Of a stretch of 64,000 nucleotides of DNA, positions 1 to 46,128 are shown piece by piece. The notes under the pieces are model-generated. The model had not been told where the DNA came from. It did not search any database and was given only the letters and a program-made list of their open reading frames with translations. The position numbers and the translations under genes were made by a program. Source of the DNA: Kiritimatiellota bacterium. Its GTDB lineage: Bacteria; Verrucomicrobiota; Lentisphaeria; Oligosphaerales; JAADHN01. The DNA is taken from contig JAADHN010000137.1 of NCBI GenBank assembly GCA_013151865.1, positions 1 to 64,000 of the forward strand, in the 5' to 3' direction. Positions within the stretch are counted from its first letter, which is position 1; each line of letters begins with the position of its first letter.

Positions 1-3000
1 GAGGCGGGCTTCTTTTTAGTCGACTCCGCCCGCTTCCGGGGACGGGGTGTTTTCGGCTTGGCGGACGACCGCTTCCCTGCCCCGGCCGCGGCGGCGGGCC
101 CGGGGGAAGTCGCGTCATCCGCGGCCGGACCTTTCGGGGGTGTCGACCGGGAGGTCGGTTTAGGCGTTTTCTTCCCCGCGCGCTTTGCCGCCGGCGACTG
201 GGAGGCGGGCTTTCTTGCTGCACGGACTTCCGAAGGGGAGGCGGTCTTGACGGGCTCAGCGTCGGTTTTCGGTGTGCGTTTACCCGCCCGTTTCCTCGAC
301 CGGGGCGGTTTCTTATTCTGCGGTTCGGCCTTGGATGCGGGCCCCGCGTCCTTCGGTCCCGGCGCGGTTTCTGCAGGAGGCGGTGCGGAGGCACTCTTTT
401 TGGACCGCGCCGGGAGTTTCCGGGCTTCGGCGCTGCGCCGTTCCCATTCCCTGGCGAGTTTCCGGGCACTCTTCTTCGGCTTCGGGGATTCTGTTGTTTC
501 GGGCTCGGGCTTTGCGGCCGCCGGCGCGACGGTCCCGATGTCCTCGGCGGGAGGCGGCGGCGGGGCGGTGGGTTTCGCGATCTTGCGCCGCGGCGTGCGT
601 GCGGACTTCGCACGTCCGGTCTTGGGGCGAGTTTTCTTTTTCTGCTTTTTGTCGGGTGCGATGTCCCGCTCTTCGGCCTCGGGGTTTGCAGTGTCGGGTC
701 GACTGGCTCCCCGCGCCGTTTTTTTGGGGGGACCGGCGTCCTCGCCCCTTGGAGCGTCATCCGGTGGTTTTGGGGCGGACGGCGTCGGACCGGACGGCTC
801 CGAGGTCACGGGTTGCTCGGGTGGGACCGGGGCGTCGGCAGCGGCCCCCGGAACGATGTTTTTCTCCGAGTCGGAAGCGAGATGTCTCCCGGTTGTTCCC
901 GCCGGGACGGTTTCGGGTTGGGGGGCGCTTTCGTTCGCTGATTCGGCGGCGGCGGGGGGCGTTGCGTCAGACGCGCGGTCCGCCGAGGCGGGCGTACCCC
1001 GTTTGAGTTGCACCATGGTTACGACTTTGTGTCCGGTCACCTTGAAGCCCCGTGCGCCGGTGGAGCGGATTGGGAGTTCATCAAAGTTGATGTCTGCGTA
1101 CTGCTGTTTCCGGCGCGGGTTCGGCTCGAGTTCGCACCGGACCACGACCCCGGTATTGGAATAGAGGTTTTCCACGATACAACCCTTGGGGATGCTCGTA
1201 TATTCACGGTTCAGAATGTACCGGTCGAACCGGAAGCGTTTTGCGTAGTAGGCCCCGGTCTTGCGGTCGCGGTAGATCATGGAGTAGACTTGCCGCTTGT
1301 CGGCTTTGAGCAGGAATTTGACGGGGCCGACGTACAGTTTGTCGGCGACGGGAACAATCTTGAAACGCCCGTTGCCGCGGAGCAGGATCAGGTGGTCGAA
1401 TTCCGAACAGGCGAGGTACGGTTCGTTCTTGTTGCTGTTGCGGACATCCGTTCCAACGAATCGATTGACCCGGTCGTGCCCGACCTTGAGGTTTTCGAGG
1501 GCCACTTCTTTGACGTTGATGGTTTCGAGGTCGGCGATTTGGGTCCGACGCGGGAATTGGGCGCCGTACTTTTTGAGTATGGACTTGAGGTATCGGATGG
1601 TGAAACGGGTGAGGTGTGCGAGGTTGTCCTCGGTTTCCTCGATGTTGCGGACGATGTCGTCGATGTCTTTGCGGTTCTTATTGATATCGAACCGCGAGAT
1701 TCGGCGGATTTGGAGCTGGAGGAGTTTCTCGATATCTTCATCGGTGATATCGCGTCGGAGCATGTCCCGGAATTCTTCCAATCCGCCCCGCACCTCGTCC
1801 AGGACGTGCTGCCAGGTCTCGCACTCTTCGATCCGTTTGTAGATACGGTTTTCGATGAAAATCTGCGCCAGGGTCTTTTCGTGGAAGCGCTCCCGGAGTT
1901 TGTGAAGAAGTATCCGAAGTTCCCGCTCGAGGTCGTGCACGAGTTTTTCGGTGTTGTAGCGGAGGACCTCGCTCACGGTCATCTCGACGGGACGCTGATC
2001 TCGGATGACCAGGATATGGGAAGAAATGCCCACTTCGCAATCGGTATAGGCGTAGAGGCGTTTAATGGCTTCGGCGGCATGTTCGCCGCGGGCCAGTTTG
2101 ATTTCTATCTCGGGTTTTTCGGCGGTGTAGTCGCGGATGCTCACGATCTTGATTTTGCCTTTGCGGGCCGCATTTTCGACCGAGTTGGTGAGCGACTCGG
2201 TCGTGGCGCCGGCGGGTAGTTCGCGGATCACGAGGGTTTTGTCGTTGACCGCCTCGATACGGGCTCGAATCTTGATGCGGCCGCGTCCGTCATCGTAGTC
2301 GGCCACATCCATAATGCCCTCGGTGGGGAAATCGGGATAGACTTGGAAAGGTTTGTTGCGCAGGATGGCGATCTGGGCTTCGAGGAGTTCGATGAAATTA
2401 TGGGGGAGGATGCGGGTACTCATGCCGACGGCGATGCCTTCGGCGCCGAGCATGAGCAGGGCGGGGACCTTGGCGGGGAGGGTTACCGGTTCACGGTTCC
2501 GCCCGTCGTAGGAATCGACGAACTCGGTGATTTCCGGATTGAACAGGACTTCACGGGCGAGGGGCGTCAAGCGGCATTCGATGTAGCGCGCCGCGGACGC
2601 CTGATCGCCGGTATAGATGTTGCCGAAATTCCCCTGGCGGTCGATGAAGTACTCCTTGTTGGCGAGCACGACCAGGGCATTGCCGATGGATGCATCGCCG
2701 TGGGGATGGTAGCGCATGGTGTGGCCGATGATGTTGGCCACTTTGTGGAACCGTCCGTCATCGAGTTCGTAGAGGGAGTGGAGGATTCGACGCTGGACCG
2801 GCTTGAGGCCGTCGTTCAGGTCCGGAATGGCTCGGTCCTTGATGACGTACGAGGCGTATTCGAGGAAGTTGGAGGCCAGCATATCCCGGAGCCCCTCGTC
2901 CCGGCCGCTCCGGGCCAGGGCGACGTCGCCGTTCTCTTCGCCGTCCGAATCGGTTTCAGCCGCCGTTTGCGGGGGCGCATTTTCGTCGGTGTCCGGGGTC

Positions 3001-3032
3001 TGGATTTCCCGGCCTTCCATGTCGTCGCTCAT
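1..3032 (-). CDS. parC: DNA topoisomerase IV subunit A (ParC/GyrA family), 3' end off window, long basic tail
   Basis: Breakage-reunion subunit of a type IIA topoisomerase, which passes duplex DNA through a transient break. Read on the minus strand from ATG 3032-3030 (MSDDMEGRE), with an AAGAG-like site upstream, the frame stays open to base 1. About residues 60-520 form the GyrA/ParC core. Signatures are [18 protein letters not shown] and the catalytic tyrosine in [10 protein letters not shown] near residue 150 (codon 2583-2585). No GyrA box is seen in the reduced C-terminal domain, which favours topoisomerase IV over gyrase. From about residue 675 to the window edge at about residue 1010 comes a low-complexity tail: first Ala/Pro/Glu-rich, then Lys/Arg-rich with motifs such as [14 protein letters not shown]. 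Such a tail is not part of the ordinary family and should be disordered and DNA-binding; that role is inferred. parE lies 190 bp upstream on the same strand. Confidence 0.93.
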
Positions 3033-3222
3033 GCAATGCTCTTTTCAGCAGGGGGGGTACTCGAGGCAAAACTTGTCGATCCGCTCCGGTGGGAAGCGTG
3101 GCAATTGTCGCTGACGTTGTGCCGCGGCTTGTCCTGCGAGAGGCGGCCGCACTTTGTCTGAGGCGCCGGTGATTCCGAGGGAAAAGCCGTTGCGGCGGGC
3201 GGCTCGGGCTTCAGGCGTCTGC

Positions 3223-37742: not shown

Positions 37743-37833
37743 CCTGAGCCCGGTCGAAAAGGGTGCATGGCCGCGCGGGGACTCGCTCTGCCGTCCTCCG
37801 CTCGCAGCCGATCCCGGTTGGCGGGGGAGACGG

Positions 37834-37870
37834 GTCCGCCTCAGGCGGACAGCGATTCGCCTCTGGCGAA
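37834..37870. repeat. two tandem hairpins
   Basis: GTCCGCC-TCA-GGCGGAC (37834-37850) and TTCGCC-TCT-GGCGAA (37856-37870) stand side by side, each a perfect stem with a three-base loop. They lie about 90 bp after the oxidoreductase stop and before the foldback element in a convergent gap, so they may terminate transcription; no T-run is present. Confidence 0.7.
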
Positions 37871-37917
37871 GCGCGACAACTCCCGCGGCTCACACCCCCT
37901 TTGTGGCCGGGCCCTAG

Positions 37918-38086
37918 CCTGAACAATGCATGAGTCACCTACTGCGATGATGTGCATCTCGCTGGCCTTCGAACATTGCTCTCGTTCGCCAACCGAGGCG
38001 GTGTTTCAACACAGCCGCGTTCGGCGCGGTGACCTGACCCCGTGCAAGCTGCGCCCTCTCGCTCCGGAGGCTATGAACTGATCGGG
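37918..38086 (-). mobile_element. MITE-like foldback element, copy A
   Basis: About 169 bp, non-coding, between two convergent genes. In reverse complement it matches copies at 43226-43400 and 45925-46099. Shared blocks with the copy at 45925 are GATCAxTTCAT, GCGAGAGGGCGCAGC, GGCTGTGTTG-AACACCGCC and TGTTCAGG. The ends form imperfect inverted repeats (CCTGAACAATGCAT on one side, CCCGATCAGTTCAT on the other). The central hairpin is at 37997-38016. No open frame or transposase is present, so it would need enzymes supplied in trans, if it moves at all. Confidence 0.6.
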
Positions 38087-38111
38087 GTAGGTCGATCAGA
38101 CCGATGCGGCA

Positions 38112-40376
38112 TCAGTCGGCAGCTTGCTGGTCCGGAACCAAACGGCTCAGCTCGACGTTGTCGAACCAGACGCGTCCTTTTTTCGCGCCGTCGACCAGGA
38201 GCATGAAAACCAGACGCGGTTTTTCTATCGCCGGTGTACGCACGTAGGCGACCACGTGTTCCCACCGGCCCGCCGTCGGCTTCTCGAGGCGACGGTCCAC
38301 GTTGGTGTATCGCGTTGTCCACTTTCCAGTCTTATCCTGCCATTTCACAGTGATACCGACAGCGGCGGCGTTGTCGAGGTCGACGGTGCGGACGTCGCAG
38401 GCAGCCCGATACAAAGTGTTCGAGTCGACGGCGACACTGCGCAGGAAGCAGAGCGGTTGACCGTCGCTACCCCCGGCGTCGAGCGTGAGCGCGCCCCGGC
38501 TCCGCTTACCTGTGCGTCGGTCCCATCCGAAGGTTGCATGGCTGCCGGTCCGTTGCCAATGGCCCCAGCCTTTGGGCATGCCGGCGCTGCGCCAGTCGTC
38601 GCGCCCTGCGGCGGCCGGGCGGCCGGTGCTTTCTTCGCTTTCGAAATCACTGCTGAAGACCGGCGTCAAACGTGTGCCGGGCGGAGGGCCGTGCTCCACC
38701 AGCTTTTTGATCGCGAGATAGTTTGCCATTTCCGTGCGGACCAGGCCCCAGCCCGCTCGGATGAACACGGCACGCGCCTTCTGCTCCGGGGTCCGGGCAT
38801 GCGCGACGACGTTCTCGATCAATGCGTCGAGACGTTCTTCCTCGCCGATCCGCAGCGCCTCGAAGTATCCGGCCCTGCCGAAATGCAGGTAAGGTGCGGT
38901 CTTGACGCTATCCCTGAACCAATTCGTTTTGGGGACGCGTTTCGTCCAGAAGGTTTCCCAGAACTCATAGTACTCGGACAGATACGGTGCCGCACGCTCC
39001 CCGACGGTCAGCCGATACCATTCGGCGAGGGTCGCGTCGACGTCGAGATAGGGATCCCAAAGCAGGCGGAGAAAGACGTAGAGTTTCGGCCCTTCAGTCC
39101 ATTTCGGCGTCGGGTACGCCTCGGCGTAGTACGCGACCACGCCCTGCTCGTGGGCGAAGCGGATGTACTCTCCCATTAAATGGGGGTAGAAACGCGGCGC
39201 CTTGTAGAATTCGTCGCCGTAGATGTAGTCGTACCATGCCAGCCTCGGTGCGACCTGCATCCAGGCCCGGGTCCGGGCCTGGTCGAGGCGGCGCTGCTCG
39301 GGATCGGCCCAGAACATGCGGTCGATGCAGACATACGGCAAGATCCGTGGGTTGAGCCCGACCTTCTTCGGCGGGTCGGTCAGCTCATTGTACGCCAAAC
39401 ATCCAAACCACTTGTCCGGGTGCTTGGCCAGCACGCCGTCCGCAATTCGGTTGGCCCAGCCGAAGAAATAGTCGGACAGGTCGATGCGACCGACCGAGTT
39501 GCGCGTGGCGTTTGCGGCTTTCATGACCGAATCGTCCCAGGCATGGGAATCGTTCATGCCCAGAGAATACGACTCGGCGTCCGGGTGTTTGTCGAAGAAC
39601 CCGTCGATATTCCGAACGCCTTCCTCGACGATGCCTTTGGCCCGCAGGTTCGGCTGCCAGTGGTAGTCCCTGTCGTTCTTGGGTAGATAACGCTTGCCGT
39701 CGATAATGGGATAGAACTCGGGATGACTCTCCGCGTATTGCGATGCGGGGTAAAGGTGCAACAGGTTGTGATGAAAGCGCATGCGTCCGTGCATGCGCTG
39801 GCGAAACAGGAACATGGCCAGGGGATTCTTCTCTCGTCCGCCGTGGAATGAGCGACCGCTGAGCTGGCGACTGAAAAAGGCCGGTTCCTGTCGTATTTCC
39901 CGACGCGGGATCGAAATCGTTCTGTGCCGCGGGATGTACTCGCCGAGGTCGCCCGGCAACAGCCAACGGACGCCGAGGTAGCGTTCGAGAAAGTCCTGGG
40001 CGCCGAAAATCGTTCCATGAGCCGAGCCGCCGATGATCTCGATGCGGTTTGCCTCGGGAAACGCGAGAACGAAGCCGTCTTTATCGAGGCTGCGGTCTCC
40101 CGGCTCGGTTCTCAGACGGATGGTGACCTCGTTCCTCGCTTTGGGATTGCCATCGAGGATCGCCAATTTCGCACCGCTGCTCTGCTCGATCACGCGTTGG
40201 AGGAGTTTTCCCGCTTCGCGCGCCATAGCGGGCGCCCCGGGATCCACCACGATGACGGCGGTGGACTGCCCGTCGTTCACGATGTCCACCGTTTGACCGG
40301 CAACGCCTCGCACCGATGCGAGAATCAGCAGCAAACCGAAGGTCCGAACAGACAGGGCCGCCAGATGCGTTGACAC
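38112..40376 (-). CDS. secreted DUF4838-type glycoside-hydrolase-like protein
   Basis: 754 aa. It starts with GTG at 40376 with GGAGGAAAG upstream and has a signal peptide (LSVRTFGLLLILASVRGVAG). Residues about 30-150 resemble the alpha/beta N-terminal domain that precedes hexosaminidase-like barrels (VIEQSSGAKLAIL, IIGGSAHGTIFGAQDFLERYLGVRWLLPG). The barrel (about 160-500) has the DUF4838 pattern HPEFYPIIDGKR, YSLGMNDSHAW and WFGCLAYNELTDPPKKV. About 590-750 is a carbohydrate-binding-like beta domain ending WFDNVELSRL. The fold resembles alpha-glucuronidase and hexosaminidase families; activity is not proven. It is the last of three minus-strand genes, 154 bp after the URO-D-fold gene. Confidence 0.85.
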   Translation of the reverse strand: MSTHLAALSVRTFGLLLILASVRGVAGQTVDIVNDGQSTAVIVVDPGAPAMAREAGKLLQRVIEQSSGAKLAILDGNPKARNEVTIRLRTEPGDRSLDKDGFVLAFPEANRIEIIGGSAHGTIFGAQDFLERYLGVRWLLPGDLGEYIPRHRTISIPRREIRQEPAFFSRQLSGRSFHGGREKNPLAMFLFRQRMHGRMRFHHNLLHLYPASQYAESHPEFYPIIDGKRYLPKNDRDYHWQPNLRAKGIVEEGVRNIDGFFDKHPDAESYSLGMNDSHAWDDSVMKAANATRNSVGRIDLSDYFFGWANRIADGVLAKHPDKWFGCLAYNELTDPPKKVGLNPRILPYVCIDRMFWADPEQRRLDQARTRAWMQVAPRLAWYDYIYGDEFYKAPRFYPHLMGEYIRFAHEQGVVAYYAEAYPTPKWTEGPKLYVFLRLLWDPYLDVDATLAEWYRLTVGERAAPYLSEYYEFWETFWTKRVPKTNWFRDSVKTAPYLHFGRAGYFEALRIGEEERLDALIENVVAHARTPEQKARAVFIRAGWGLVRTEMANYLAIKKLVEHGPPPGTRLTPVFSSDFESEESTGRPAAAGRDDWRSAGMPKGWGHWQRTGSHATFGWDRRTGKRSRGALTLDAGGSDGQPLCFLRSVAVDSNTLYRAACDVRTVDLDNAAAVGITVKWQDKTGKWTTRYTNVDRRLEKPTAGRWEHVVAYVRTPAIEKPRLVFMLLVDGAKKGRVWFDNVELSRLVPDQQAAD

Positions 40377-40530
40377 GATTCTTTCCTCCAGGGATGAATA
40401 CTCGGGTACTCGGGCGGCCGGAACTCACGGCGCCTCAAGACGCGCTGTTACATACAATCGGACGCTCTCCGAGGGGAGATCCAGCCGACGGCCGGCCGGC
40501 CGCTCCAGATGCCGGCGCTTGGAGCCGCTC

Positions 40531-41592
40531 CTAAACGCCCCGCTCAAGAGTGTCCAGCACCACGGCCGCACTCGTGCGCCAATTGGCCGGGACTTCTTCG
40601 CTGATCATCAGGCAGAACCGGCTCGGGCCGGCTTGGCGGACCACTCGCCGGATTTGGGCCGAAAGTTCCCGGCCAGGTCTCCCATACCAGCCGAGATTCG
40701 GATGCAGCCAAAGGAATTTCTCCGGCCACACGGAACGCGCTTCGGCAACGCTCATGTCGCCTTCGGGCGGCTCTGTGAACGAGTCGATCCCGTCGAACCC
40801 CAGCTCGGCCACATCCCGGGCGATGACGCGAAGTTGCCCGTCGTAATGGACGAGCAACTTTTTGCCCGCGGCGCCGAGGAGGTCGACGATCTCCCGGTAA
40901 AGCGGTGCGAGGCGCCGCCGGTAGCACCGGGGACCGAGGGTCTCAATGGATAGGTTCTCCCAAAGCTTGATTTGTGCCGCGGCGCTTTTCGCGGCCAGGC
41001 GGACCTCTTCCAGCTTTATCTCGGTCATCTGTTCCAGCAGATCCAGCATCTCCGGGCGTTCGAGCGCAAGGTCGATGGAAAAGCGCTCGAGTCCCACCCA
41101 GTCGATCTGGAGAACCATGAGCGGCGTGCGTCCCGCGCCCAGACCTTGAATCTGCCCCACGGTCACCCCCCGGTCGCCGAGACTGGTCTCCGACTTTCGA
41201 AACGCGGAATCGTCCGCGACAATTCGCATGTCCTCCAGCGCCCGCTGCATGATCCGGTAATCCGGCGCCTTCTTGATGAAATGCTCCTGCCGCCATTCGC
41301 CCAGATACCATTCGTGCAGTTCGCCGACATCCGTGATCAGGTGTACATCGCGACGCGTCCGACCCCCCTGCTCGGTAATTGTCTCGACGATCTCGAAGTT
41401 GGGGTGCTCGTGCCGAATCACGTTCGCGTGGTTGATCCGACCCAGCCCCAGCTCGAAAAGCCCTTCCCAGTCCACGTGCGTCCGATTGTGTACAAACCAA
41501 TCGTACACGGCATAGACCGGCCATTCCACGGGCTTGCCCGCCAGCGCGTCCTCGAGCCGTTGGCGCACGCGGAAAGAAGTCATGGCCGCCAT
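40531..41592 (-). CDS. URO-D-fold protein, Asp in place of the zinc-site Cys
   Basis: 353 aa, no signal peptide. The superfamily contains uroporphyrinogen decarboxylase and zinc-dependent corrinoid methyltransferases (MtaA/MtbA). The C-terminal half has the barrel pattern (LVHYDGQLRVIARDVAELGFDG) but the strand that carries H-x-C-G in methyltransferases reads His249-Tyr-Asp251-Gly, so a zinc-thiolate site is doubtful. The decarboxylase N-terminal signature is absent, and no haem genes are near. The ATG at 41592 shares one base with the stop of the upstream gene (TGATG), and GAGGAGG precedes it, so translation is coupled. A role in catabolism with its neighbours is inferred. Confidence 0.8.
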   Translation of the reverse strand: MAAMTSFRVRQRLEDALAGKPVEWPVYAVYDWFVHNRTHVDWEGLFELGLGRINHANVIRHEHPNFEIVETITEQGGRTRRDVHLITDVGELHEWYLGEWRQEHFIKKAPDYRIMQRALEDMRIVADDSAFRKSETSLGDRGVTVGQIQGLGAGRTPLMVLQIDWVGLERFSIDLALERPEMLDLLEQMTEIKLEEVRLAAKSAAAQIKLWENLSIETLGPRCYRRRLAPLYREIVDLLGAAGKKLLVHYDGQLRVIARDVAELGFDGIDSFTEPPEGDMSVAEARSVWPEKFLWLHPNLGWYGRPGRELSAQIRRVVRQAGPSRFCLMISEEVPANWRTSAAVVLDTLERGV

Positions 41593-42971
41593 CAGGCCTC
41601 CTCGCGCATATTCCCTTTGTCCGATTGGCGCGCCGTGGCTCTCATCCACGAGTCATACCACCGAGGTGGCGAGAATTTTCGAGCGAACACGTGCCGCACG
41701 GGACCGAGTCCGTAAACCTGTCGCTGGAGGCGCTCTTGCTCCGCCCAGAATTTGTCCGCGAGGCGTAGTTTATCGTCCGTCCACTCCTCCTCGCCGGGCA
41801 CGCCGATCTTGCGGTCGAGCGCCTCCAGGATCACCTTGCGGCGCCAATGTTCGAGTCGCCACGCCGCCGGCGTTCCCGCCGCGAGTCGCTCCAGCTCCCG
41901 GCCGGCCTCGGGAAGGGACGGTTGTGTGCGGTCACCCCAGGACGCCATCCATTGCGCCCATCGGCGAGCGTGGGCCGGCGCCGCGTCGAAGTAGCGTTGC
42001 GCATACGCCCGCAACACCTCCTCCGCGTCGGCGAACCGGCCGCTGCCCAGCCCGGCGAGCAAAGCCTTGTTGACGTCGTCGAACACTCCTTCGCTGTAGG
42101 CTTGAAACCCCTGTGCTCCATGAGCTGCGACGTCATCGAGCGTGCGCGGCAGTCGACTCGGCGCCACCACCGCCCCCCACTTCGTGTAGAGGTCTCGTAC
42201 GGCAGCGTTGTCGCTGTAGCCGATGTGCACGAACGCCAGCTTGCGGCAGCCGGCAGGGACCGGGACGTTCTTGAAGCACGTCTGCCCGTATTCGATGTGC
42301 AGCGTCATCGCCTTCAGCCACCCGGGCGCTTCGTCCGCCGCCCATCGGTTGAACAGGGCGTGTTCTTCCGGGGTCCACCACCACGAGCAAACCCACGGCT
42401 CGATGCCCGGATGGTGTTTCTCGGCGACCGAATGCACCTCTCTCAGTAGGCGCGCGAACGTGAGGATCCACGGCTGACAGTGTTTGCACGCACAACCGCC
42501 GTAGTCGTACGCAAACGCAGTGAACGCCGCCAGACGGATGCCGCTGGCCGCAAAGTCCTGAAACCAGCGTTCGAAGTTGCCCAAGACGAGTCGGCGTACC
42601 TCGGGACGACTGGGGCACACGAGCTGTCCGAAGATGCGCGAGTCCTTTGTCGCGGCGCGCTCCGGGCGAAGCTGGTCGAGGTACACGTGGTTGAGCGTGA
42701 CGATCAGGTTCAGATCGAATCCCAACGCCTGCGCGGCGCGGAATGCGCGCTTTTTCCGGTCGAGCAGCTCCGTGGCGAGATCCCAGTATGCCTCGGATGC
42801 GTACGGGTTGCATACGTCGGTGGTGGTGATCCAGTCCGCGTAGCGGTTGAAACCCCAATGTTTCATTTCCGCAAGATAATCGGACATTTCGTCAGGCCAC
42901 ATGGCTTCGTACGAGTTGCCGAAGTGCGCCGGGCAGTAGCATTCGCGGAAAGGAAAGACTCGCAGCGGCAT
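41592..42971 (-). CDS. barrel-like protein of unknown family, glycosidase-like context
   Basis: 459 aa without a signal peptide. I do not recognise a named family. Features seen are an aromatic-rich N-terminus (FRECYCPAHFGNSYEAMW), barrel-like strands with terminal acids or aromatics (LNLIVTLNHVYLDQLRPE, RLAAFTAFAYDYGGC), a Cys cluster CACKHC near residue 185, and WVCSWWWTPEE. These resemble glycoside hydrolases of the DUF4838/GH20 kind. The Cys cluster could bind metal. The ATG at 42971 has AAGGAGA 7 bp upstream; a longer frame to 43172 lacks protein character. It is the first gene of a unit with the URO-D-fold and DUF4838 genes. Confidence 0.72.
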   Translation of the reverse strand: MPLRVFPFRECYCPAHFGNSYEAMWPDEMSDYLAEMKHWGFNRYADWITTTDVCNPYASEAYWDLATELLDRKKRAFRAAQALGFDLNLIVTLNHVYLDQLRPERAATKDSRIFGQLVCPSRPEVRRLVLGNFERWFQDFAASGIRLAAFTAFAYDYGGCACKHCQPWILTFARLLREVHSVAEKHHPGIEPWVCSWWWTPEEHALFNRWAADEAPGWLKAMTLHIEYGQTCFKNVPVPAGCRKLAFVHIGYSDNAAVRDLYTKWGAVVAPSRLPRTLDDVAAHGAQGFQAYSEGVFDDVNKALLAGLGSGRFADAEEVLRAYAQRYFDAAPAHARRWAQWMASWGDRTQPSLPEAGRELERLAAGTPAAWRLEHWRRKVILEALDRKIGVPGEEEWTDDKLRLADKFWAEQERLQRQVYGLGPVRHVFARKFSPPRWYDSWMRATARQSDKGNMREEA

Positions 42972-43773
42972 GAATGTCTCCTTCCGTGGTCGAAACGATC
43001 CGCGCCGGGGCGGTGCGGAAAAGGACGGTTTGCGGTACCCACGAAACCGTAACCGAATAACGGAGGTCCTTGCAAGTCCCCACGCCAGCCGCCCGGCCAC
43101 GTGGGGATCTGCAGAATTCTCAACCCATAAGGAGTGACGGACGATGCGGTTCTTGGCGGTAGCCGCGAACATAGTTGTTGCCGCCTAGGGATGCAATCCA
43201 CTGTTTGGATTCTGCCGCGGATTGGCCAGGCGATTTCGCAACCTTCGGTGTGATAAGGCTCAACTACCACGTATTCAGGTTGTTGAGGCTGACGCTGGGC
43301 GAGGCCGTGGTGAAACACCGCCTCGGTCGGCGGGGGGCGGCAATATACTGAAGATGCGTGTGATGCGCCATCGCAGCAGAAGGCTCGTGCATTCTTCGGG
43401 TCGGTCTCCGCATCCCGCGCAGCCCCGGCCCGTGCACCCCGGCCGCGGTATCGCTTGCAGGCGTTCCAGGCCTGTGCGCGACCTCCGGCATTGCGTTTTT
43501 TCTGACGCACACCACTGGACAACCGGGAAAAACCTCGCTATCATGCTGGCCGGAACGTCGGCACTTTGCCGGGGGAACGATTCCGGCGGAATCGATGCCC
43601 GAGCCCGGGATGTGTTTTTTGGGGGAGGCCGTACGCAACCTTCCTGTTTAAACCGGGTCTGCAAGCTCAGGGCGTGCGTCCCTGTCGGAAAAACTCGTGA
43701 CGTTGCGTGCGAGGGCCGGTTCGCCCGTCCCGTCGCGCCGAGCCGGTCGTGTGGAAAGGAGGTGGTTCAGGAT
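42972..43773. other. divergent intergenic region containing foldback copy B
   Basis: About 800 bp between the leftward barrel-like gene and the rightward zinc-ribbon gene. It holds foldback copy B (43226-43400). Outside that I see no gene, RNA or clear promoter; both flanking genes need a promoter here. Confidence 0.4.
43226..43400 (+). mobile_element. MITE-like foldback element, copy B
   Basis: The right half (43303-43400) aligns closely with the copy at 45925-46099: AAACACCGCCTCGG, then GGCGGCAA, CTGAAG, GATGCG-CATCG-AGCAGA and an end in TTCGGG. The left half is diverged; its start at 43226 (CCAGGCGATTTCGC) is placed by symmetry and weak similarity to the other left ends. The hairpin GGCCGTGGTGAAACACCGCC at 43303-43322 is then exactly central, as in the other copies. 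No coding capacity. Confidence 0.55.
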
Positions 43774-43983
43774 ATGGAAACCATTGTCTGTCCGTATTGC
43801 GAATGTCGCGTCAAGATCAGTGACGTGGACAACGAAGGCGGGGCTTGCCCCGAATGCGGGGCCATGATTACCGGGTCGCTCATTTTCGGAGCAAACCGTC
43901 TGGGATTTGAAGAAGACGAGTTCGACGAAGATGTGCCGGCCCCGGGCGTGGACGAAGAAGAGGGGTTCGACGAGGACGAGTAG
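43774..43983 (+). CDS. small zinc-ribbon protein with acidic tail
   Basis: 69 aa. Two CxxC knuckles, CPYC (residues 6-9) and CPEC, separated by about 20 residues, form a zinc ribbon. The C-terminal 25 residues are strongly acidic (FEEDEFDEDV, GFDEDE). The ATG at 43774 follows a near-perfect Shine-Dalgarno, AAGGAGGT at 43756-43763, suggesting high translation. The longer frame upstream is not protein-like. Function is unknown; such proteins often serve as transcription or translation accessory factors. An AsmA-like gene follows after 89 bp. Confidence 0.8.
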   Translation: METIVCPYCECRVKISDVDNEGGACPECGAMITGSLIFGANRLGFEEDEFDEDVPAPGVDEEEGFDEDE

Positions 43984-44072
43984 AAGCCGCCTGCGGGGAC
44001 GGTTGCGCTTGTCTCGGACGTCGGCGCGTTTGCTGCCCTGCCCGGGAAGTGGAAGACGGGAGAGCCCGGCCC

Positions 44073-44879
44073 ATGAAACGTACACTCAAAGTCCTGGCCG
44101 TCGGCGTTGCCGTGGCAGTCGTTCTGTTGGCGGTTGGTTTGGTCGTTGTGTATCTCTCGTTCGGGGCCATTGTGAAGAAGGGCGCCGAGACCATGGGGCC
44201 CCGAATCCTGGGAGCGCCGGTGCATCTTGAAAAAGTCGAGTTCTCCCTGTTTCGCGGCAGCCTTGACCTCCAAGGTCTGGTTGTCGGCAATCCCGAAGGT
44301 TTCAATACCGATTCCGCGTTCAGGCTCGGCCGCATCCGGGTTAAGCTTCAGCCCGCCAGTCTCTTTGGCGATACGGTGCGCATCGAAAGAGTCCTGATCG
44401 ACAGCCCGGAAGTCACCTATGAAATGGGACTCAAAGGGAGTAACATCGGGGCCATCAAGAAGAATGTCGAGGCCTTTGGCGGCGGTCCATCCGAAGTATC
44501 GGGAAAAAAACCGCCGGAAACCCCGAAGGGAGAGGCCGGCGCGGGAAAGAAATTCATCATTGACGACTTCCGCTTTACCGGCGGCAAAGTCAACCTCAGC
44601 GCGACGTTTCTGAAAGGCGGCAAGGCCGCCGTTCCTCTGCCCGAGATCCACTTGACGGACATTGGTAAGGCTTCCGGCGGCAAGAGCATTGGTGAGACCG
44701 TGGCCGAGATCGCCAAGGCCATTACAGATGCTGTTGCCCAAGCCGCTTCCGGTGCGGCCAGGGGGCTGGCAGCCGGCGGGGCACAGCTCAAGGGCGGAGC
44801 CGAGACCGCCGGAAAAGTCGTGAAGAAAAGTGCCGCCCGGGCCGTGAATAACCTGAGAGGCATCTTCCGGCGGAAGTAA
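44073..44879 (+). CDS. AsmA-like envelope protein
   Basis: 268 aa, one N-terminal membrane span (LAVGVAVAVVLLAVGLVVVYLSF), remainder periplasmic. The segment GPRILGAPVHLEKVEFSLFRG, then LDLQGLVVGNPEGF and IERVLIDSPEVTYEMG, is the AsmA/DUF748 pattern linked to lipid transport across the periplasm. Residues about 135-165 are a Lys/Pro/Gly linker and the C-terminus is Ala/Gly/Lys-rich, predicted helical. It is much shorter than full AsmA proteins. The ATG at 44073 has GGGAGA upstream; a GTG at 44049 is possible. Confidence 0.82.
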   Translation: MKRTLKVLAVGVAVAVVLLAVGLVVVYLSFGAIVKKGAETMGPRILGAPVHLEKVEFSLFRGSLDLQGLVVGNPEGFNTDSAFRLGRIRVKLQPASLFGDTVRIERVLIDSPEVTYEMGLKGSNIGAIKKNVEAFGGGPSEVSGKKPPETPKGEAGAGKKFIIDDFRFTGGKVNLSATFLKGGKAAVPLPEIHLTDIGKASGGKSIGETVAEIAKAITDAVAQAASGAARGLAAGGAQLKGGAETAGKVVKKSAARAVNNLRGIFRRK

Positions 44880-44955
44880 CCGGTTCGCCGGGGGCCGGTC
44901 TTCCGTTCCTCCGGGGGCGGGCTCGTCCTCGGAAAACGGAACCAAAGGGTTGACG

Positions 44956-45816
44956 ATGTTCATCGACGTTCACGCCCACGTCTACCGGCGTCCCGTGCCC
45001 TGGTTCCCCTTTGCCGCGCCCGAACAGGTGTTGCGCCGTTATGATGAAATCGGAATCGAGAGGGGCGCCATCTTGCCTCTCGTGGGCCCGGAGGTCTATC
45101 TCCCCCAGTCCACCGAGGACGCACTTGAAATGGCGGAGAACTCCGGGGGGCGGTTCGTTCCTTTCTGCAATGTCGATCCCCGTGCCCTGACCAACTCCGC
45201 GGACGCACCCCTCGGAGATGTATTGCGCTACTATCGGGACAAGGGGTGTCGCGGCATCGGGGAGGTCATGCCGAACCTGCCGTTTCTCCATCCGCTGGTC
45301 CAGAACCTGTTCCGCCATGCCCAGGATGTCGGCCTGCCACTCACGTTCGATATCTCGACCCGCATCGGCGGCGCTTACGGCTTGTACGACGATCCCGGCC
45401 TCCCTCAGCTCGAACAATCCCTGAAACGTTTTCCCCGACTGGCTATCCTCGGGCACGGCCCGCCTTTCTGGGCGGAGATCGCCCGGCTTGAAACTCCGGC
45501 GGACCGGGCCGGCTATCCCTCGTACCCCGTGCGCGAGGAGGGAGTTGTGCCCAAGCTGTTTCGCCGATATCCGAACTTGTACGGCGACCTGTCGGCCGGG
45601 AGCGGCTTCAACGCTCTTAAACGCGACCCCGAGTACGCCCTCCGTTTCCTCGATGAATTCCAGGATCGGCTCATGTTCGGCACCGACATCTGTTCCCCGG
45701 ACCAAGTCTTGCCTCTGGCTCGTTTTCTTCTGGACTTGCGCGACGCCGGGAAGTTGTCCGAAACCGCGTTTCGGAAAATTGCCCGGAACAACGCGATTCG
45801 CCTCCTGAAACTGTGA
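44956..45816 (+). CDS. amidohydrolase-family (TIM-barrel) hydrolase
   Basis: 286 aa metal-dependent hydrolase or decarboxylase of the amidohydrolase-2 type. The metal ligands are the HxH in FIDVHAHVYRRP, a later His in AILGHGPPFW and the Asp in LMFGTDICSPDQVL. DISTRIGGAYGLYDDPGLPQLE and NLYGDLSAGSGFNAL complete the barrel pattern. The ATG at 44956 was chosen over a TTG two codons upstream. The substrate is unknown. It follows the AsmA-like gene by 76 bp on the same strand. Confidence 0.9.
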   Translation: MFIDVHAHVYRRPVPWFPFAAPEQVLRRYDEIGIERGAILPLVGPEVYLPQSTEDALEMAENSGGRFVPFCNVDPRALTNSADAPLGDVLRYYRDKGCRGIGEVMPNLPFLHPLVQNLFRHAQDVGLPLTFDISTRIGGAYGLYDDPGLPQLEQSLKRFPRLAILGHGPPFWAEIARLETPADRAGYPSYPVREEGVVPKLFRRYPNLYGDLSAGSGFNALKRDPEYALRFLDEFQDRLMFGTDICSPDQVLPLARFLLDLRDAGKLSETAFRKIARNNAIRLLKL

Positions 45817-46128
45817 AGCGATTCGACCGGAGCCGAAGACGGCAACGGCTCGGGCGGACCGCAGGGCGTTCTTGAGAACAGGACGACTTGTCGGTTGCTG
45901 TCGGTGCCTGAAACGTCCTTCTGACCTGATCAATTCATGGAGTTCATCGCGAGAGGGCGCAGCGCATACGGACTCGGGTGATTGCGTCGAGCGCCGGATA
46001 AGGCTGTGTTGTAACACCGCCTCGGCCGGTTGGCGGCGGCAACCTTCTGAAGTTGTGTGAGATGCGTCATCGTAGCAGACGGCTTGCGCACTGTTCAGGC
46101 TGAACCGCCGCTGAGTGAGGGACGCCAG
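45817..46128. other. intergenic region containing foldback copy C
   Basis: 312 bp between the amidohydrolase and thiE, more than half filled by foldback copy C (45925-46099). I see no thiamine-riboswitch core before thiE. GTGAGGGA at 46115-46122 is the thiE ribosome site. Confidence 0.5.
45925..46099 (+). mobile_element. MITE-like foldback element, copy C
   Basis: 175 bp, the most complete copy. The left end CCTGATCAATTCATGG and the right end (reverse complement CCTGAACAGTGCGC) form an imperfect terminal inverted repeat. The centre is the hairpin GGCTGTGTTGTAACACCGCC at 46002-46021, whose midpoint matches the element midpoint. It is homologous to copies at 37918-38086 (inverted) and 43226-43400. 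It ends 30 bp before the thiE start, so it could affect thiE expression. Confidence 0.6.

Follow-up and report, generated by a model that had tools for sequence, protein, structure and literature searches.

What are the three hairpin-forming repeats that lie close together on a contig of a Kiritimatiellota bacterium (JAADHN010000137.1), and what maintains their fold? The window, the whole 64,000-nucleotide stretch of that contig that was analysed, contains them as copies A, B and C (Table 1), and an original prediction made from the letters alone proposed that they could be miniature inverted-repeat transposable elements (MITEs), REP-like elements or structured RNAs. We consider it probable that the three are decaying, non-autonomous elements of ~174 bp moved in trans by an IS1380-family transposase, with a fold that would be kept for spreading. 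Comparison of the sequences shows that the element has paired ends matching those of IS1380 in relatives, inserted at YTAR-type sites with a 4-bp duplication, and keeps its hairpin and internal loops by compensatory change.

The repeats are real, and they are not confined to this locus. Copies A, B and C are 67–71% identical in pairwise local alignments (E 3e-16 to 2e-23), and a covariance model built from other genomes returned exactly the coordinates originally proposed for them. The prediction had noted three copies and none elsewhere in the window and suggested local spread; we also found no fourth copy in the window, but the family is genome-wide, and local spread is therefore wrong. Copy C, used as a query against the assembly (6.21 Mb, 176 contigs), had at least 40 scored matches, of which 39 besides itself were 77–83% identical, and a DNA profile search of 829 kb of this genome (mostly whole contigs) yielded about 29–33 substantial, dispersed copies. 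Extrapolation from those 829 kb gives a genome-wide copy number of roughly 220–250, which is perhaps somewhat high because the contigs were picked for length among known carriers. By home-made gene calls, 27 of 29 copies lie mostly outside genes, compared with 17% for random placement. There is no clear orientation bias (10 tandem gaps hold a copy in the same and 5 in the opposite orientation), and copies occupy gaps of every type (divergent, convergent and tandem). We also observed a compact form of ~85 bp (L040 1501–1585, G002:C174) with its conserved end regions just 17 bp apart.

The consensus of 32 copies folds end to end into a single full-length hairpin (−107 kcal/mol for 184 nt, flanks included). 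The central hairpin that had been described as a separate feature is only the tip of this structure; it lies exactly at the midpoint of copies B and C, as predicted, and ~4–5 nt away from it in copy A, which has lost a few bases from one arm. Elements of 172–177 bp with the same loop layout are present in several genera of the window's class (records titled Lentisphaeria included), in further Verrucomicrobiota families, and in Bacteroidota, among them Marinilabilia salmonicolor (isolates), Draconibacterium and Cyclobacteriaceae. The taxonomic range is at least that found, and spans at least two phyla. Most of the relatives are metagenome bins, and for that reason two phyla represented by single bins, Hydrogenedentota and Chlorobiota, were given no weight as independent phyla. 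A binning error may explain the Hydrogenedentota element (B1Sed10_210R1), which looks like the one in a Lentisphaerae bin that shares its sample prefix, and the element in the Chlorobiota bin is close to the Draconibacterium one.

Pairing is conserved across this range while most of the sequence that forms it is not. Among eight lineages, the interiors average 38% identity and the outer 32+32 nt 77%. In an alignment of 13 representatives that excludes the window's own genome, 91.8% of cells pair, against 75.7% when shuffled and 31–40% when slid, and 32 of 46 pairs have changed on both sides. The prediction had proposed a covariance model of the three window copies; the model that we built from these 13 (R1) found copies in the relatives as well as in the window's own genome, where it returned the three window copies and about twenty others. 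Seven held-out Verrucomicrobiota elements found by R1 gave 89.0% paired cells (34–42% when slid), and 59 of their 73 pairs, terminal ones among them, have changed on both sides. Together with Bacteroidota elements (16 in all, four of them entered again as the reverse strand) the values were 86.6% and 67 of 73 pairs; both held-out alignments were fitted to the structure of the model and lean towards it. A model of Bacteroidota-type elements alone finds elements of the Lentisphaeria class with exact ends (E down to 1e-16), and it also detects copies in the window's own genome (E 1e-7 to 1e-4). Inside the element, the part that varies least is an asymmetric internal-loop motif, approximately TTCGTwryGAGA in the left arm and TCGnAryAGA in the right; internal loops persist in both phyla, and the length holds at 172–177 bp in most families. 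A 160-bp relative (1501–1660 of L385, L386 and L387, in G124, G125 and G126) has a similar fold, TTAG or CTAA duplications and a different subterminal motif.

The ends of the element are those of a transposon. The element proper, CCTGAT...TTCAGG (in general CCTGA...TCAGG), is 175 bp in the consensus, carries terminal inverted repeats (CCTGATnAATTCATG and CCTGAATAATGCATG) and lies between 4-bp target duplicates. Inspection of the 4-mers flanking copies in relatives, mostly CTAG and TTAG (target type YTAR), revealed identical flanks in 25 of 38 copies, against 13.0 expected by shuffling (maximum 22 in 5000 shuffles). Because CTAG is palindromic, the non-palindromic flanks are the informative cases; there are 19 of them, with 9 direct repeats and no inverted ones. 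The 32 copies of the window's own genome have the same excess of matching flank positions (p<0.0002), and copy C retains perfect flanks. The target-site duplications whose presence had been proposed as a check were thus found, as 4-bp YTAR duplications. A TA target duplication with an IS630 partner was rejected, since the duplication is 4 bp long and the one IS630-type DDE gene that we found lacks matching ends. At L051 (G000:C19), a RAYT-like frame (identified by eye) lies upstream of an IS630-type DDE gene that is split over two frames.

The same ends flank IS1380-family transposase genes in other genomes. With at most one mismatch allowed, the end pattern TAGCCTGAWTAATTCATG was matched in 25 of the 198 genomes of the class, one of which holds as many as 382 matches; its reversed control produced a single match. 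A decayed IS1380-family transposase lies between two ends spaced 1.4 kb from each other; IS1380 genes have such ends on one or both sides in G011, G017, G062 and G063; IS1380 elements with such ends and uninterrupted frames are present in a Neomarinimicrobiota genome and in B34T3L8; and those of Draconibacterium have such ends and frames with stops (the family assignment was made for L355, L356, L405 and L128). A genome in one contig, G383, is particularly informative. It has 23 matches to PF13701, its IS1380 ends read approximately C[CG][CG]C[CG]ATWTCTCACC and its hairpin ends CGGCCATTTCTCACAA. At two sites (L409 ~1088–1269 and L411 ~2979–3160), a hairpin and an IS1380 element abut head to tail across one shared CTAG. 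As judged from these sequences, IS1380 and the hairpin have left the usual end sequence together in G383, which we count as the decisive case. Since the ends match those of IS1380 in relatives and change together with them in G383, the hairpin appears to be a MITE-like satellite of IS1380. Of the possibilities originally listed, a MITE-like foldback is thus the one borne out, by dispersed copies, paired ends, 4-bp duplications and, in relatives, a transposase family whose ends match.

In Neomarinimicrobiota, Calditrichota and Bacteroidales UBA2198 (L241, L243, L274, L277 and L296), IS1380-type ends also enclose different interiors. These elements share the ends of ours but not its fold (judged by eye; R2 scores of 20–23 bits) and were left out of the structural family; they seem to be independent MITEs that belong to this one transposase family.

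Copies resident in the window's own genome decay almost neutrally, with little structural constraint. On average they differ from their consensus by 16%, paired and unpaired positions change at similar rates (0.158 and 0.167), one-sided changes break a pair in 260 cases and keep it in 177, and the mean folding energy has weakened from −93 to −67 kcal/mol. As resident copies decay in this near-neutral manner while the lineage keeps its fold between genomes, the target of selection seems to be the lineage as it spreads, rather than the individual copy in a host; read most simply, the fold is important for spreading. The type of pairs retained additionally gives a hint of folding by one strand, either as RNA or as single-stranded DNA. 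With pairs defined by Watson–Crick matches only, G-U combinations outnumber A-C by 51 to 21 on the strand that begins with CCTGATTAA, and by 112 to 26 in 16 elements outside the model, compared with 166 to 140 for resident copies. Read on the opposite strand, a G-U becomes an A-C, so the excess points to folding of the CCTGATTAA-beginning strand.

These observations are consistent with a mechanism in which an IS1380-family transposase would act on the ends in trans and move the element into intergenic YTAR sites. The CCTGATTAA-beginning strand would fold when single (as RNA, or as DNA exposed at replication) and present the TTCGTwryGAGA / TCGnAryAGA motif to a putative partner. Copies unable to fold would not spread, so that selection on the line of spreading copies would keep the fold, and copies that have landed would then decay with little structural constraint, as is seen in this genome. 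More tentatively, and with somewhat greater doubt than confidence, we suggest that one strand (RNA or single-stranded DNA), folded around the loop motif, may be required for IS1380-family transposition or may recruit it. If this is true, the element would be a DDE-transposon satellite dependent on a conserved fold, an RNA-like transposon parasite distributed across several phyla.

Several points weigh against the proposed IS1380-driven mechanism. The shuffle controls ignore relatedness; the wobble excess is partly biased by fitting structures on the same strand, and its cells are not independent; and the role proposed for the fold comes from evolutionary comparison alone. In addition, although a matching transposase, as originally sought, is found in relatives, the window's own genome, a draft, contains no IS1380 gene above threshold. 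PF13701 has just one sub-threshold match there, inside another type of transposase, and the partial end matches that we inspected for an autonomous element look like decayed or truncated copies without a transposase. Given the lack of an IS1380 gene in this draft, the family looks stranded there. The two-ended pattern was also unmatched in viral contigs.

The main rival is an ordinary MITE with a functionless palindromic body, in which template switching copies one arm onto the other and thereby mimics compensation without selection. Template switching that corrects palindromes is an established process in bacteria and phage, and long-hairpin MITEs are common. Arm correction should nevertheless be visible among resident copies at 16% divergence, and there is little or none: compensated pairs number 29 against 31 shuffled in one set and 35 against 26.3 ± 4.1 in the other, a slight excess that favours this rival and counts against our main reading, and 260 one-sided changes break a pair. 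Correction should also erase the internal loops that persist in both phyla and would not yield an excess of G-U over A-C, and the length is constant at 172–177 bp in most families. We therefore regard a functionless body as unlikely.

The near-neutral decay also bears on the idea of a host-beneficial structured RNA (for example a stabiliser of mRNA ends, or a terminator) carried on a mobile element and kept locus by locus. Strong covariation, intergenic positions and the location of copy C upstream of thiE would suit such an RNA; resident copies, however, lose pairs as freely as unpaired sites change, their stability declines, and the element shows no orientation bias and uses every type of gap. 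Given such decay, an RNA retained at each site to regulate the host is not supported, and this already disfavoured explanation is highly improbable; the part of the original structured-RNA suggestion that survives is a folded strand in the element's own propagation, which cross-phylum covariation favours. Least probable of these explanations is a substrate of single-strand recombination, attC-like or acted on by a Y1/HUH enzyme such as RAYT, for which the likeness to IS1380 ends would be secondary. It would account for strand asymmetry and for fold and loop positions kept while sequence varies, as in attC, and Y1/RAYT-type genes are present in the genome. A 4-bp duplication fits DDE transposition and is not expected of attC or Y1/HUH systems, however; no element adjoins the Y1 genes, and the hairpin ends track those of IS1380 even in G383.

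Table 1. Hairpin elements in the window and their parts. cmsearch scores are from the model built from other genomes.
Feature	Coordinates	Strand	Description or basis	cmsearch	nhmmer	Flanks
Copy A, hairpin element	37918..38086	−	169 bp, small deletion in one arm	39.5 bits, E 6.5e-7	131 bits	CTAC / CTAG, 3/4 positions match
Apical hairpin, copy A	37997..38016	−	sequence and consensus fold			
Copy B, hairpin element	43226..43400	+	175 bp, most diverged of three	36.7 bits, E 3.2e-6	148 bits	TTGG / TCGG, 3/4 positions match
Apical hairpin, copy B	43303..43322	+	sequence and consensus fold			
Left target-site duplicate of copy C, CTGA	45921..45924	+	sequence; identical 4-mer on other side; family-wide flank test			
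Copy C, hairpin element	45925..46099	+	175 bp	64.4 bits, E 3.8e-13	172.5 bits	CTGA / CTGA
Apical hairpin, copy C	46002..46021	+	sequence and consensus fold			
Right target-site duplicate of copy C, CTGA	46100..46103	+	sequence; family-wide flank test			

All three copies are non-coding and intergenic, as had been predicted. One home-made gene call runs into copy C at its 3' end, but the Pfam-supported reading of the thiamine-phosphate synthase gene (thiE, TMP-TENI) lies beyond the copy, which ends 29 bp upstream of the presumed start of that gene (46129) and may be part of its leader. Positions 37770–37916 (−) of the window hold another dispersed repeat, of ~110–147 bp (GGCCACAAAG..GAGCCGCGGGAGTTGTCGC..). 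It has six copies in the 829 kb (the others at L080 ~8472, L091 ~18364, L078 ~17805, L068 ~4473 and L067 ~7963), three of which directly adjoin a copy of the hairpin element.

No Rfam 15 family reached its gathering score on the window or on the elements of other genomes; the one match above gathering near the latter is a neighbouring tRNA. In G246 (L382), a hairpin copy at 1501–1675 lies 12 bp beyond a tRNA gene (1415–1488), and a plant microRNA-precursor model matches that hairpin below its gathering score, an example of the false annotation that long hairpins attract. A search of open-access full text with the end and motif sequences, judged by title, found no published description. The covariance models are now usable for annotating such elements, and the family cautions against taking strong covariation in intergenic repeats as proof of a host regulatory RNA. 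It also makes testable the question of whether a DDE-transposon satellite needs a folded strand to move.

Among known systems, REP/RAYT elements are likewise many-copy intergenic palindromes, but at 20–40 bp they are far shorter than ~174 bp; our element has a 4-bp target duplication, and no copy lies near any of the five Y1/RAYT (PF01797) loci, so that the REP-like alternative did not hold up. Integron attC sites also keep their fold and unpaired positions while sequence varies; unlike them, the element has a 4-bp target duplication and IS1380-type ends. ERIC/IRU, NEMIS/Correia and YPAL are intergenic palindromic repeats of ~100–170 bp with long hairpins, thought to be mobile. To our knowledge they are confined to narrow groups, whereas here two phyla share a fold with unrelated interiors; we set them apart by description, and by sequence via Rfam only. 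With insertion sequences of the IS1380 family (NF033539, PF13701) the element shares its terminal sequence, including in several elements a GATTAA / GAATAA difference between the two ends, the 4-bp YTAR target duplication and the co-divergence of ends in G383. It differs in being ~174 bp long, non-coding and without a transposase, and beyond ~16 bp it is unlike the insertion-sequence ends inspected. With MITEs it has in common a short, non-coding body, many dispersed copies, paired ends, a target duplication and ends common to a transposase-bearing element. MITEs are usually viewed as short-lived debris, constrained at their ends only; here the ends of a satellite follow those of the local transposase, and the whole body is kept as a fold by compensation across phyla, with a fixed length and a conserved loop motif. 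Judged by the sequence features tested, our element is an IS1380 MITE, set apart by its conserved fold.

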